From Robertmurraya dakarensis (GTDB taxonomy: Bacteria > Bacillota > Bacilli > Bacillales > Cytobacillaceae), in the NCBI RefSeq assembly GCF_900156875.1, contig NZ_LT707408.1:514946-578945 (forward strand): DNA of 64,000 nucleotides, in the 5' to 3' direction. The number at the start of each line of letters is the position of its first letter. Position 1 is the first letter of the stretch. Positions 35,692-43,290 of the stretch are shown piece after piece. Below the pieces are notes generated by a model, which was not told the DNA's origin, did no database searches, and worked only from the letters and a program-made list of their open reading frames with translations. A program made the position numbers and the translations under genes.

Positions 35692-36486
35692 ATGGACAAA
35701 ACATCATTAATAGGAATTATTGTAGCGTTGATTGGAGTAGGAGTTGGGATGGTTTTTAAAGGAGTCAGCCCTGCTGTTCTGATCAATCCAGCAGCGATCT
35801 TTATCATTATATTAGGAACAATCGGTACTGTTACGATAGCTTTTCCAACAAATGAAATCAAAAACGTTCCAAAGTTATTTGGGATTTTATTTAAGGAAAA
35901 ACAGGAAATGAGTATGCCTGTTTTAATTAAAATGTTCTCCGATTGGGCACAGTTGGCCCGAAAAGAAGGGTTATTAGCACTTGAGGCAAAGACAGGTGAT
36001 GTAGAAGATGATTTTTTACGTAATGGATTATCTTTAGCTGTTGATGGACAAAGTGCAGATTATATTCGTGATGTTTTGTCAGAGGAAGTCGAGGCAATGG
36101 AAGAACGTCATCAAACAGGGGCGTTGATTTTTACTCAGGCAGGGACATATGCTCCTACATTAGGAGTGCTTGGAGCGGTTGTCGGGCTGATTGCGGCTTT
36201 AGGAGATATGAGTGATGTTGATGCTTTAGGACATGCCATTAGTGCGGCGTTTGTTGCGACATTACTTGGGATATTTACGGGATATGCACTTTGGCATCCA
36301 TTTGCAAACAAGTTAAAAAGAAAATCAAAACAAGAAGCAAAGTTGAAATATATGATGATTGAAGGGATTCTATCCATTCTAGAGGGGGAAGCACCGCGAG
36401 TGATTGAGCAAAAACTAGCGTCTTATTTGCCTGCTGGTGAAAGGAAAAAGTTCCTTGAAGAAAGTGGAGTGAATTCGGATGAGTAG
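35692..36486 (+). CDS. motA: Flagellar motor stator protein MotA
   Basis: A 264-residue MotA/TolQ/ExbB-type stator subunit with four membrane helices (residues about 4-21, 30-50, 150-172 and 180-200). It closely follows B. subtilis MotA, including MDKTSLIGII at the start and the loop QLARKEGLLALEA. The prolines in AGTYAPTLGVLGAVVGLI that couple ion flow to torque are present. It overlaps motB by eight bases. The ribosome binding site is AGGTGGG. Confidence 0.96.
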   Translation: MDKTSLIGIIVALIGVGVGMVFKGVSPAVLINPAAIFIIILGTIGTVTIAFPTNEIKNVPKLFGILFKEKQEMSMPVLIKMFSDWAQLARKEGLLALEAKTGDVEDDFLRNGLSLAVDGQSADYIRDVLSEEVEAMEERHQTGALIFTQAGTYAPTLGVLGAVVGLIAALGDMSDVDALGHAISAAFVATLLGIFTGYALWHPFANKLKRKSKQEAKLKYMMIEGILSILEGEAPRVIEQKLASYLPAGERKKFLEESGVNSDE

Positions 36487-37249
36487 GCGGAAAAAGAAGA
36501 AACATCATGAGGAAGAAGTAGGAGAAGCATGGCTGTTGCCTTATGCTGATATATTGACTTTATTACTGGCTCTTTTTATCGTTTTGTTCTCGATGAGTTC
36601 AATAGATGCTGCGAAATTTGCAGCGATGTCGGCAGCCTTTAGTGAAAATCTTTCAGGAGGGACGGGAATTTTGAACTTTCCTAGTCCGACACAAGAAAAT
36701 GGGGAATTATCTCCAGATGAACAAGAAAAGCGAGAAAAAGAGGAAAATGAGGTTAATGATCAAGTGGCGGCTGAAAAAGTAGAGAAGCTAGAACTTCAAA
36801 CTATCCAACAGAAAGTAAACACTTATATACAAACAGAGAATCTTGGCGACATGTTAGAAACATCCTTGACTGATGAAGGGCTGTTATTGACGATTCGCGA
36901 TAATGTGCTGTTTGCATCAGGAAGTGCCGATGTGAGGCCGCAAGATCTGCAAGTAGCAAATGAAATATCGGAACTGCTTGTTATGGACCCGCCAAGAAAT
37001 ATTATTATTAGCGGGCATACTGATAATGTTCCGATTAGCAATCCAAGGTTTGAATCAAACTGGGAGCTAAGTGTGATGAGAGCGATCAATTTCATGAAAA
37101 TTATTTTAAAAAATGAAAACTTAGACCCAAGTTGGTTTAGTGCCAAGGGTTTCGGTGAATTTGAGCCAATAGCATCCAATGATTCAGAAGAAGGAAGAAG
37201 TAAAAATCGACGTGTTGAAGTTTTGATACTGCCAAGAAGTTCAAACTAA
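36479..37249 (+). CDS. motB: Flagellar motor stator protein MotB
   Basis: A 256-residue stator anchor. A basic N-terminus (SRRKKKKHHEEE) precedes a single membrane helix with the ion-binding aspartate at residue 24 (LLPYADILTLLLALFIVLF). The OmpA-like peptidoglycan-binding domain is at residues about 130-250 (ISGHTDNVPISNPRF, GFGEFEPIASN). The valine in LFIVLF resembles proton-type MotB and not sodium-type MotS, an inference from known stator comparisons. The second phased repeat array begins nine bases after the stop. Confidence 0.96.
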   Translation: MSRRKKKKHHEEEVGEAWLLPYADILTLLLALFIVLFSMSSIDAAKFAAMSAAFSENLSGGTGILNFPSPTQENGELSPDEQEKREKEENEVNDQVAAEKVEKLELQTIQQKVNTYIQTENLGDMLETSLTDEGLLLTIRDNVLFASGSADVRPQDLQVANEISELLVMDPPRNIIISGHTDNVPISNPRFESNWELSVMRAINFMKIILKNENLDPSWFSAKGFGEFEPIASNDSEEGRSKNRRVEVLILPRSSN

Positions 37250-40620: not shown

Positions 40621-41042
40621 GATTATTCATCCTTTCCATCGTAGAAATAGTATTTATATAAATTATACGATAGTTTTGATAATTTAGACAAATATATTTC
40701 ACATAATATTCAAAATTACATATTGACATAAAAAAATAGTTTCTTCTTGTTCTGATGACTCCATCATAGAATTGTTTTGACCATTTTGTTGCTGCATTAC
40801 TTTAAAAACATGATTCTTTAGGAATGAAAAGATTAAATAATCATAAAATTATGATAAATGAAGAGAGCTGATGGATATGAAAGAAAAACGTTAATTTCTG
40901 CTGAAAAACAAAGAATTTTCTATGTTTCTCTTTTGAATAAAAAGAACTATACTTTAATAAATTCTATATAAAGAACAAAATAAATCTTATATGAAACGAA
41001 AATAGAAACAAATGCCCACTTTATGAGAAGAAGGTGATTCAA
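40621..41042. other. 422-base AT-rich intergenic region with two AAAGAAC sites
   Basis: I see no gene here. Two direct copies of AAAGAAC (40941-40947 and 40970-40976) lie 29 bases apart, 67-102 bases upstream of the zinc-ribbon gene. Their complement, GTTCTTT, fits the SinR operator core GTTCTYT known from B. subtilis, and a SinR homolog is encoded 1 kb away. This is suggestive only. Confidence 0.35.
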
Positions 41043-41246
41043 ATGTATCGGAAAAACTGTCAAAACTGCAACAGACCATCCTACAGTAGTTCAGAGTTTG
41101 GTGAATGGATTTGTCCAGTATGCGGAAAAGATTTAACCACTTACCCATTTTTTGATGCTATTACATTTGAACGACTCCAAGTGAAATCAAAATTCAATCA
41201 TAAAAAGATAGAAAACTATGAAAAAAAGTTCCTATTTTTTTATTAA
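41043..41246 (+). CDS. Small zinc-ribbon-like protein, unknown
   Basis: A 67-residue protein with two CxxC pairs, CQNCNRPS and CPVCGKDL, spaced as in a zinc ribbon, followed by a basic, aromatic tail. AGAAGGTGATTCAA precedes the ATG at 41043. I do not recognise a family. Its position next to sinI and downstream of possible SinR sites makes a role in the same regulon possible but unproven. Confidence 0.6.
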   Translation: MYRKNCQNCNRPSYSSSEFGEWICPVCGKDLTTYPFFDAITFERLQVKSKFNHKKIENYEKKFLFFY

Positions 41247-41495
41247 GGACCATAGTACCAGAATATAGAAAAACTTAAAAGATACTTTCCGACAAAAAGC
41301 GGTAAAGGGAAATCGTAGTATGCTGTACCTGATGCATTTAGATTATTGTATGGTGAAGAGGGTATGTAGAATTTTGGAGACGGTTGTAGAAATAAAATAG
41401 TAAAAAAACAATTACATATGACAAATACTAACATTTTTATATGTTTAGAAGAGTTAAACTGAATTTGGGAAGAAATAATTTAATTATGGACGATG

Positions 41496-41576
41496 TAAGG
41501 GCAAACCTATTGAAAGGTAGGGACGCAAAGTCTCGGGTCTAAGGTAATCCTTTTGTACTATGATGGCTGGGCTGCA
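41496..41576 (+). ncRNA. c-di-GMP-I riboswitch (GEMM-I)
   Basis: The conserved blocks are in order: AAGGGCAAACC, a hairpin CCTATT-GAAA-GGTAGG capped by a GNRA tetraloop, GGACGCAAAG, CGGGTCTAAGG, then the 3' domain TATGATGGCTGGGCTGC. This is the GEMM-I pattern. The G in the GGGC block corresponding to the ligand-contacting G of the Vibrio Vc2 aptamer is retained, which favours c-di-GMP over cGAMP. It lies about 20 bases upstream of the ribosome binding site of the sinI-like gene. No terminator hairpin intervenes, so translational control is the likelier mechanism. Confidence 0.93.
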
Positions 41577-41609
41577 ATAATCCGTTCCGTTTATTTAGGG
41601 GGAAAGTAT

Positions 41610-41753
41610 GTGATTGAGACAAGAGAGATTATCTCTGGATTAGACATTGAATGGATAAAATTAATCTTGGAAGCTAAGAAAATAGGACTAGAGAAGGAAG
41701 ATATACGAGAGTATATAGAGAAAAACCGTACAAACAACCGTGCTAGCATGTGA
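41610..41753 (+). CDS. sinI: SinI-like antirepressor
   Basis: A 47-residue protein starting at a GTG (41610), with GGGGGAAAG at 41598-41606 upstream; an ATG two bases earlier runs straight into TGA. The core LDIEWIKLILEAKKIGLEKE and DIREYIEKNR matches the SinI/SinR dimerisation helix-hook (B. subtilis SinI has LDQEWVELMVEAKEANIS). SinI binds SinR and blocks its DNA binding, releasing biofilm matrix genes. Here it is preceded by a c-di-GMP riboswitch and is convergent with sinR, unlike the tandem sinIR operon of B. subtilis. Confidence 0.88.
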   Translation: MIETREIISGLDIEWIKLILEAKKIGLEKEDIREYIEKNRTNNRASM

Positions 41754-41782
41754 AATAAATGAATTAGTTAGTAGAACGCTTC

Positions 41783-41808
41783 AATATTCGCTGAACAAAG
41801 CGAATATT
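41783..41808 (+). terminator. Hairpin after sinI
   Basis: AATATTCGCT and AGCGAATATT form a perfect ten-base-pair stem around GAACAA, 30 bases after the sinI stop, with a short T-rich tail. Confidence 0.65.
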
Positions 41809-41940
41809 TCCAAACCTCCAATTCTGATTAACCTCTAAATCTAATATTCTATAATCCCAGTGGCGGGATAATAAAAACATCTTTTAATGCTCAGTTCCTT
41901 TCATCTGAATTGGTGATGCGTCCAAAAAAAGATATTCAAA

Positions 41941-41976
41941 AATAAAACCTGTTTCCTTTATTGAACAGGTTTTATT
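41941..41976. terminator. Terminator after sinR
   Basis: AATAAAACCTGTT and AACAGGTTTTATT form a perfect 13-base-pair stem just past the sinR stop, T-rich on both strands. Confidence 0.88.
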
Positions 41977-41979
41977 TAC

Positions 41980-42303
41980 TTATTTGTTTTGATTTATTCT
42001 CCATTTGTTAAACTCAAGGTACTCTCGGAACTGCTCTTTTGAAACTCCAGATTCCATTGCTTCTTTTACAATCTTTAACCATTCAGAGTCAAGCTCATTA
42101 TCATCGAGATGTTCATGAATCAAGCTATCTACTGGGACATGCAAGACTGCTGCGATTTTTTCAAGAAACTGAATCGAAGGGTTACTCTGTAAATTTCTCT
42201 CGAGGGAGCTCAAATACGATTTTGCTACTCCGGCTTGTTCCGCGAGTTCTGAAAGCGACATCTTTTTTTCCATGCGGAGTTTTTTTACGCGATCACCTAT
42301 CAT
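41980..42303 (-). CDS. sinR: SinR family master regulator of biofilm formation
   Basis: A 107-residue two-domain regulator. The N-terminal Cro/C1-type helix-turn-helix (SLSELAEQAGVAKSYLSSLE) and NPSIQFLEKIAAVLHVPVDSL are almost the same as in B. subtilis SinR. The C-terminal Sin domain (LDSEWLKIVKEAMESGVSKE and QFREYLEFNKW) pairs with SinI. SinR represses matrix operons and favours motility. The linker is a few residues shorter than in B. subtilis. It has its own upstream region and terminator, so its dose is set independently of sinI. Confidence 0.94.
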   Translation of the reverse strand: MIGDRVKKLRMEKKMSLSELAEQAGVAKSYLSSLERNLQSNPSIQFLEKIAAVLHVPVDSLIHEHLDDNELDSEWLKIVKEAMESGVSKEQFREYLEFNKWRINQNK

Positions 42304-42519
42304 TCAAGTCTCACACACCTTATCATCTGTATAAAGCTATAATATCAGATTTTTGTAAGCAGTTCCATACTAAGAACTTATATGCAATACTTTTTTATTT
42401 TATAATAACTTTTTTATATATAGAAAAGGCAGCTGCTAAAATCGTTAATACAATAAAATATTTTCAATGTCGTTTTAAAAGTATTAAAATGAACTTAGCT
42501 ACTTTAGGAGGGGTAAAAC

Positions 42520-43290
42520 ATGATTGTTCTGAAATCACCAAGGGAAATAGAGAAAATGAAGAAAGCAGGAGAACTGCTGGCTTCTGTTCATAAAGAAATT
42601 GCGAAAATGATTACCCCGGGCATTACCACCTGGGAAATTGAAGAGTTTGTGGACAGTTATTTAAAGCAGCATGGAGCAACTCCTGAGCAAAAAGGCTATA
42701 AAGGTTATAAGTATGCAACTTGTGCAAGCGTGAATGATGAAATTTGCCATGGTTTCCCACGAAAGGAACCCCTTAAACAAGGTGATATTGTCACGATTGA
42801 TATGGTTGTTAACCTCGATGGAGCTTTGGCAGATTCAGCTTGGAGTTATCCTGTGGGAACTGTTACGGAGGAAACTTCAAGACTGTTAGATGTAACCAAA
42901 GAGGCTCTATATAAGGGAATAGAACAAGCAAAGGTTGGAAATCGTATTGGTGATATTGGATACGCAATCCAAACCTATGTAGAAGAGGAAGGCTTCTCAG
43001 TTGTACGCGACTTCATTGGTCATGGTATAGGAGCTTCCATTCATGAAAAACCTGACGTGCCTCATTACGGACTTCCGGGAAAAGGACCAAGAATTAAAGA
43101 AGGTATGGTCTTCACAATTGAACCAATGGTGAATGTAGGAGCTTACCAAAAGAAAATGGATTCAAACGGATGGACAGCTCGAACGGTAGACGGTAAATAT
43201 TCAGCTCAGTACGAGCATACGATTGCTATAACAAAAGAAGGACCCATTATTTTAACAAGCCAAGAAGATAATGAAAGACAGTCGGTGTAA
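42520..43290 (+). CDS. map: Methionine aminopeptidase, type I (YflG/MapB-like)
   Basis: A 256-residue type I methionine aminopeptidase removing the initiator methionine. Metal ligands are visible in VTIDMVVNLDGALADSAWS (two Asp), FIGHGIGASIHEKP (His), FTIEPMV (Glu) and QYEHTIAIT (Glu). The length and sequence resemble the B. subtilis YflG paralog more than the ribosomal-cluster Map, and yfl/yfk-type genes follow. TAGGAGGGGTAAAAC precedes the ATG. A terminator stem overlaps the last codons. Confidence 0.93.
   Translation: MIVLKSPREIEKMKKAGELLASVHKEIAKMITPGITTWEIEEFVDSYLKQHGATPEQKGYKGYKYATCASVNDEICHGFPRKEPLKQGDIVTIDMVVNLDGALADSAWSYPVGTVTEETSRLLDVTKEALYKGIEQAKVGNRIGDIGYAIQTYVEEEGFSVVRDFIGHGIGASIHEKPDVPHYGLPGKGPRIKEGMVFTIEPMVNVGAYQKKMDSNGWTARTVDGKYSAQYEHTIAITKEGPIILTSQEDNERQSV

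Follow-up and report, generated by a model that had tools for sequence, protein, structure and literature searches.

The window analysed here, a stretch of 64,000 nucleotides from the genome of Robertmurraya dakarensis, contains a c-di-GMP-I riboswitch aptamer, a gene for a SinI antirepressor and a convergent sinR gene in close succession. The features of this locus are as follows:

41419..41425, + strand: TGACAAA element, 81 nt 5′ of the aptamer core, also found in other genus members and in Bacillus methanolicus MGA3
41490..41579, + strand: c-di-GMP-I (GEMM-I) riboswitch aptamer; RF01051, 69.8 bits (cut-off 35), E 1.3e-11, full model 1–87
41576..41602, + strand: linker and Shine-Dalgarno (SD) sequence; the site of an anti-SD hairpin in relatives, degenerate in the window copy
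41610..41753, + strand: sinI, antirepressor of 47 aa, GTG start; PF08671 (SinI), 42.9 bits (cut-off 31.4)
41940..41977, no strand assigned: terminator-like inverted repeat between the convergent sinI and sinR, the sole such site in 40900–42550
41980..42303, − strand: sinR, 107 aa, HTH and Sin domain, convergent to sinI; HTH_3 57.3 bits, SinI domain 54.5 bits

When the whole window was scanned against Rfam 15 with cmscan, RF01051 was the only match over the gathering threshold, so that the GEMM-I aptamer proposed before sinI in the preliminary description withstood the covariance search. The GEMM-I sequence blocks quoted there all fall inside the RF01051 alignment; the aptamer is where it had been placed, but its left edge had been set slightly late, at 41496, as the model begins at 41490. 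The bases aligned to the ligand-contact positions are G at 41500, A at 41527 and C at 41575, all of the canonical kind, and we take them to be G20, A47 and C92 of the crystal-structure numbering. The c-di-GMP-I-GGC variant, RF03167, was not reported for the window aptamer, which has A, not G, at the A47 position. A search for the aptamer core followed at the right spacing by the D-x-E-W codons of SinI gave a single hit in the window, and 100 shuffles gave none. The SD sequence, GGGGG at 41598–41602, begins 18 nt past the aptamer end, close to the 20 or so bases estimated earlier. A scan of 40900–42550 found no terminator-like site between the aptamer and sinI, and the single site observed in this region compares with 0.8 expected in shuffles. 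Candidate sigma-A promoters upstream of the leader scored no better than those in shuffles. The TGACAAA element, which recurs at −75 to −89 in 6 other genus members and MGA3, is a possible weak 0A-like or promoter element. Just 5′ of the leader lies a small ORF of 70 aa resembling a zinc ribbon (41034–41246; Pfam match sub-threshold only), and a MotA/MotB-type stator pair is encoded at 35692–37249, some 4 kb before the riboswitch and sinI.

The gene behind the aptamer is the 47-residue SinI-domain gene that had been named in the preliminary description: its product carries the PF08671 domain at residues 11–37 and no HTH, as a short SinI should, and its nearest solved relative is the Bacillus subtilis SinI chain 1b0n_B (E 3.8e-4). 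The convergent gene encodes the domain order of SinR, with HTH_3 at residues 6–60 followed by the SinI domain at 71–98, and matches the B. subtilis SinR chain 1b0n_A with an E-value of 2.5e-39. PF08671 was matched by all 36 SinI proteins scanned, namely, those of 34 of the 35 named loci described below (L093 was left out), the window protein and that of a second copy in the same genome, and the residues D, E, W and A are invariant across the SinI of 36 relatives. Binding of SinI to SinR in this organism is thus predicted from homology and neighbourhood.

Aptamer, sinI and convergent sinR are found together in all 7 genomes of the genus, RF01051 being confirmed in each of the 6 other members, where it precedes a SinI ORF that converges with SinR. 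An exact search pattern combining the aptamer core with SinI codons caught 3 of these 7 genomes, the other four reading GGGGCGCAAAG, and a widened search recovered all 7; as the genus shows, counts by the exact pattern miss true cases, and they also include some chance matches. With this reading of the numbers, GEMM-I followed by a PF08671 gene, an arrangement that had been suggested as worth seeking in other Bacillaceae, was found by the exact pattern in 144 of 193 genomes of the family (17 of 25 genera; none with a reversed-pattern control) and, in a sample of the order, in 143 of 397 genomes (54 of 136 genera; one with the reversed control). Among the matches listed, at least G023:C11, G092:C3, G097:C1:214161, G272 and G529 are due to chance. 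In the named genomes, 35 stretches with both aptamer and SinI were picked, by the aptamer 5′ core and a SinI-like ORF, among at least 118 stretches listed; most of the other 83 listed were set aside as chance matches. L093 aside, the titles of the 35 cover 17 Bacillaceae-type genera. L093 itself, on a contig titled Chryseobacterium sp. ISL-80, holds a GEMM-I-sinI-sinR locus near-identical to that of a Cytobacillus (L089), and its title or assembly looks wrong.

In a covariance scan of 20 loci, the best model was RF01051 in 14 and its clan mate RF03167 in 6. The sinI leaders that Rfam assigns to RF03167 are L068, L096, L008, L017, L085, L056 and L239; the six Bacillaceae relatives that score best with this model all hold GACGCAAAG. 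On their sequences, clan competition mislabels these leaders, and the six from Bacillaceae keep A47. Altogether 103 loci were read, of which 102 passed (L225 failed), and the P3 end was recognised in 93, with 9 dropped. The 102 had been preselected by the presence of a SinI ORF. At 78 of them, phmmer places a SinR-type ORF (at least 100 bits) no more than 1.5 kb away, in convergent orientation at 57, including the window, and in tandem at 21; there is none within that distance at 20 loci, and the flank is too short at 4. A c-di-GMP-I aptamer in the sinI leader, with SinR as the target, is well supported by the family models, synteny and wide conservation.

In B. subtilis, sinI is under the control of Spo0A, and c-di-GMP is not known to be linked directly to the SinI/SinR biofilm switch. 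The SinI and SinR of B. subtilis (1b0n) are homologous to those of the window, but here the two genes are convergent and sinI is equipped with a riboswitch; RF01051 was found in none of the 14 genomes used as controls, which included B. subtilis. The preliminary description knew of no account of such wiring; however, a 2015 study of riboswitches in RNA-seq-defined 5′UTRs of B. methanolicus MGA3 already lists ‘(c-di-GMP)-sinI’ for BMMGA3_08510 in its Table 4 (PMC4342826). The matching locus, L181, has the same aptamer-sinI pairing (RF01051, 82.2 bits) with SinR convergent and keeps CCUGGAAUAC...GUAUCUAGGG, which the window copy does not. In the accessible portion of that paper, the entry amounts to one species and one table line, without expression platform or linkage analysis. 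Thus, what is already known is the pairing in one species, and what is added here is its breadth, the proximity of sinR at most loci, a model of the switch and the frequent upstream Spo0A boxes. A related design is a c-di-GMP ‘on’ riboswitch upstream of cbpA in the B. cereus group, as presented in the available parts of two papers (PMC7423583, PMC7793685): it is likewise a c-di-GMP-I riboswitch turning on a biofilm-related gene, but its target is an adhesin, not a regulator such as the sinI of the window. The latter paper also mentions a microarray on B. thuringiensis 407 in which raised c-di-GMP was accompanied by raised sinI and spo0A (PMC7793685).

A mode of action is suggested by the relatives, in which the aptamer is continued by a hairpin with the general form CUGCCUGAAAUAC-loop-GUAUUUUAGGAGG. 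The 5′ arm comprises the final bases of P3, then C92, C93 and the strand of P1, and the 3′ arm ends in the SD sequence. In 78 distinct aligned segments, 89.5% of the cells of this anti-SD helix are paired, versus 42.6–57.2% when the helix is slid and 87.1 ± 0.4% when shuffled (0/500). Both-side changes occur in 9 of the 12 pairs, a value also reached by two slid versions, and the number of cells with such changes, 20, is not above that of slid versions (3–38); because double-change counts do not exceed these controls, support for the helix rests on the percentage paired. RNAalifold predicted no structure from the same 78 sequences. For P1, the pairing of CAG with C93-U94-G95 is the best-paired register in an open scan of 76 leaders (86% versus 78% shuffled), ranks second by z, behind the register shifted by one, and agrees with the Rfam drawing of RF03167; CAG/CUG is conserved in the relatives, and the window copy reads GAT/AAT. 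The P1 and anti-SD pairings share bases and are, in sequence, mutually exclusive. Forcing the bound-state pairs on 89 distinct leaders lifts mean SD accessibility from 0.41 to 0.74 (69 up, 4 down), compared with 0.51 to 0.64 for shuffled linkers (real versus shuffled, Wilcoxon p 1.8e-9). Folding and exclusive pairings together predict a translational ON switch, in which a rise in c-di-GMP would raise SinI and lower SinR.

In the mechanism that we propose, the two terminal bases of the 3′ strand of P3 together with C92, C93, U94 and G95 would be drawn, without ligand, into a long hairpin pairing with the SD sequence of sinI, so that no SinI would be made. With c-di-GMP bound, C92 would contact the ligand, C93–G95 would pair with the 5′ CAG as P1 and the base of P3 would close, freeing the ribosome site for translation of SinI, which would then bind SinR, usually encoded next door, and relieve biofilm genes of repression by SinR. 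In our estimate, the best explanation of the locus is that the sinI 5′ leader holds a c-di-GMP-I riboswitch acting as a translational ON switch, with a probability of roughly 0.7; we infer ligand binding, the ON direction, the biofilm outcome and the working of the window copy itself.

Alongside the RNAalifold result and the 20 loci lacking a nearby SinR, features of the window copy count against this explanation. Its hairpin has shrunk to AAUAA/UUAUU plus CG/CG, C92 is followed by A instead of C, and the P1 triplets are non-complementary. The same forcing takes its SD accessibility from 0.03 to 0.30, versus 0.36 to 0.66 for its own shuffled linkers, a change not distinguished from chance; the second GEMM-I sinI copy of the genome goes the opposite way (0.96 to 0.67), and folds of the window leader alone give no clear ON/OFF answer. 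The predicted free-state fold of this leader has the SD sequence paired with UCCUUUUG from the P3 loop. Either the window and second copies use other pairings, such as this one, or they are drifting. The loss of the P1 triplet, the altered base after C92 and the degenerate hairpin would all be expected if the window leader were a drifting copy, the aptamer of which still fits the family while the switch no longer works, and so would the lack of the perfect 0A box that six other genus members possess; nevertheless, the aptamer scores over the full model, SinI and SinR are intact, and the P3-loop pairing makes another switch possible, so that we regard drift as unlikely. The equivocal folds of the two copies, and the derivation of the ON direction from folding alone, also leave some room for a ligand that lowers SinI or that works via a leader terminator, and a run rich in T (6 in 8) lies between C92 and the start in 29 of 93 leaders. 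These runs sit, however, within the anti-SD stem, the window leader has no terminator-like site, and register scans of the 5′ flank detected no other conserved pairing by which the SD sequence could be released without ligand; we judge an OFF or transcriptional switch improbable.

More remote from translational ON control is the notion that the riboswitch transcript runs into the convergent sinR, c-di-GMP lowering SinR by antisense pairing. In the accessible text of a 2023 paper (PMC9943018), a c-di-GMP-I element by a SinR-like gene of a Paenibacillus is read in this antisense-acting manner; the case resembles ours in that the element likewise adjoins a convergent SinR-type gene, as it does at the 57 convergent loci, the window among them, but we read the window element as the sense leader of sinI. 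An antisense-acting riboswitch would have no sense gene of its own, whereas in the window the aptamer is followed, in the same orientation, by sinI, which has an SD sequence of its own and is separated from sinR by a terminator-like repeat. Furthermore, such action on sinR is impossible in this way at the 21 loci where the gene is on the same strand and at the 20 where none is near. An intervening SinI gene with its own ribosome site is also present in Paenibacillus sp. HW567 (L239): the aptamer scores 75.3 bits with RF01051 (RF03167 being best by clan), the SinI ORF has a TTG start behind AGGAGGAG and scores 35.3 bits as SinI, and SinR is convergent. This locus is the only one with both SinI and SinR among 30 c-di-GMP-I loci read in six Paenibacillaceae-titled genomes. 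By analogy, an intervening sinI is the simpler reading of the case as described in PMC9943018, which the layout of HW567, a different strain from that of the paper, would explain, and the antisense route appears very unlikely. Finally, the ligand might be another cyclic dinucleotide, such as 3′,3′-cGAMP, which GEMM-Ib members bind, a single base (A20G) shifting the preference according to the available part of PMC6456294. Yet position 20, by the numbering assumed here, is G in the window copy as well as in those leaders that were aligned by their GGCAAAC, and the genome has GGDEF matches, as detailed below, making a change of ligand extremely improbable. An assignment of most relatives to A20, the cGAMP type, was dropped, the base before GGCAAAC being position 19 under the presumed A47/C92 numbering.

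The genome of R. dakarensis (5.48 Mb in 11 contigs) holds ten RF01051 matches, two of which precede SinI genes, namely, the window copy and C11:2750363–2750449, followed by a SinI of 54 aa. Two SinI-only ORFs, of 45 and 43 aa, face each other at G000:C11:216055–216410, where none of the ten RF01051 matches lies. A second SinR-like protein, of 118 aa, is 48% identical to the window SinR, with a Sin domain below cut-off. The 24 GGDEF and 20 EAL matches carried by the genome indicate c-di-GMP turnover. At G000:C10:500708–501424, an EAL-domain frame with one in-frame TAA lies beside a GGDEF domain and is possibly a broken turnover gene.

In the relatives, control of sinI by c-di-GMP would probably not exclude the classical input. 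Of all 7-mers counted over the 250 nt that precede each of 83 non-redundant aptamers (out of the 102 loci), the most enriched was TGTCGAA, in 31 of 83 versus 1.3 in shuffles, which the accessible parts of two papers give as the core of the Spo0A box (PMC3485338, PMC10134886). Given that TGTCGAA is also found upstream of 9 of 36 other c-di-GMP-I leaders in the family, the signal is not sinI-specific, and a sinI-specific Spo0A signal was not established from the two proportions, which are raw counts only. Six other genus members carry TTCGACA at −204 to −214; upstream of the window aptamer there is no perfect Spo0A box. At L160, L161 and L164, c-di-GMP-I aptamers that have no sinI behind them are preceded by perfect Spo0A-box cores, at the same distance of about 84 nt in each, which hints at a wider joint control by Spo0A and c-di-GMP. 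Of the wiring of c-di-GMP into SinI drawn in the preliminary description, the aptamer-sinI-SinR layout holds on the strength of models, synteny and conservation. With the 0A-box core as the top 7-mer, the c-di-GMP input was, in the relatives, probably added to the Spo0A input rather than replacing it. More tentatively, at somewhat less than even odds, we suggest a two-input biofilm gate in Bacilli, where Spo0A~P would drive sinI transcription through 0A boxes and c-di-GMP would permit sinI translation through the SD-masking riboswitch, such that SinR would be lifted only when the starvation state and the surface signal agree. Such a module would be old, present in at least two orders and overlooked because sinI is tiny, and it would explain c-di-GMP-I elements read as antisense to sinR.

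If true, the aptamer-sinI layout would join two major systems of biofilm control in a single step, and the sense-leader reading offers a simpler account of the published antisense-riboswitch proposal, as far as the available text of PMC9943018 presents it. In much of the surrounding Bacillaceae, c-di-GMP would then act directly on the antirepressor through its RNA, and B. subtilis would be the exception, providing a testable rule of biofilm control for genera that matter in industry and soil biology.
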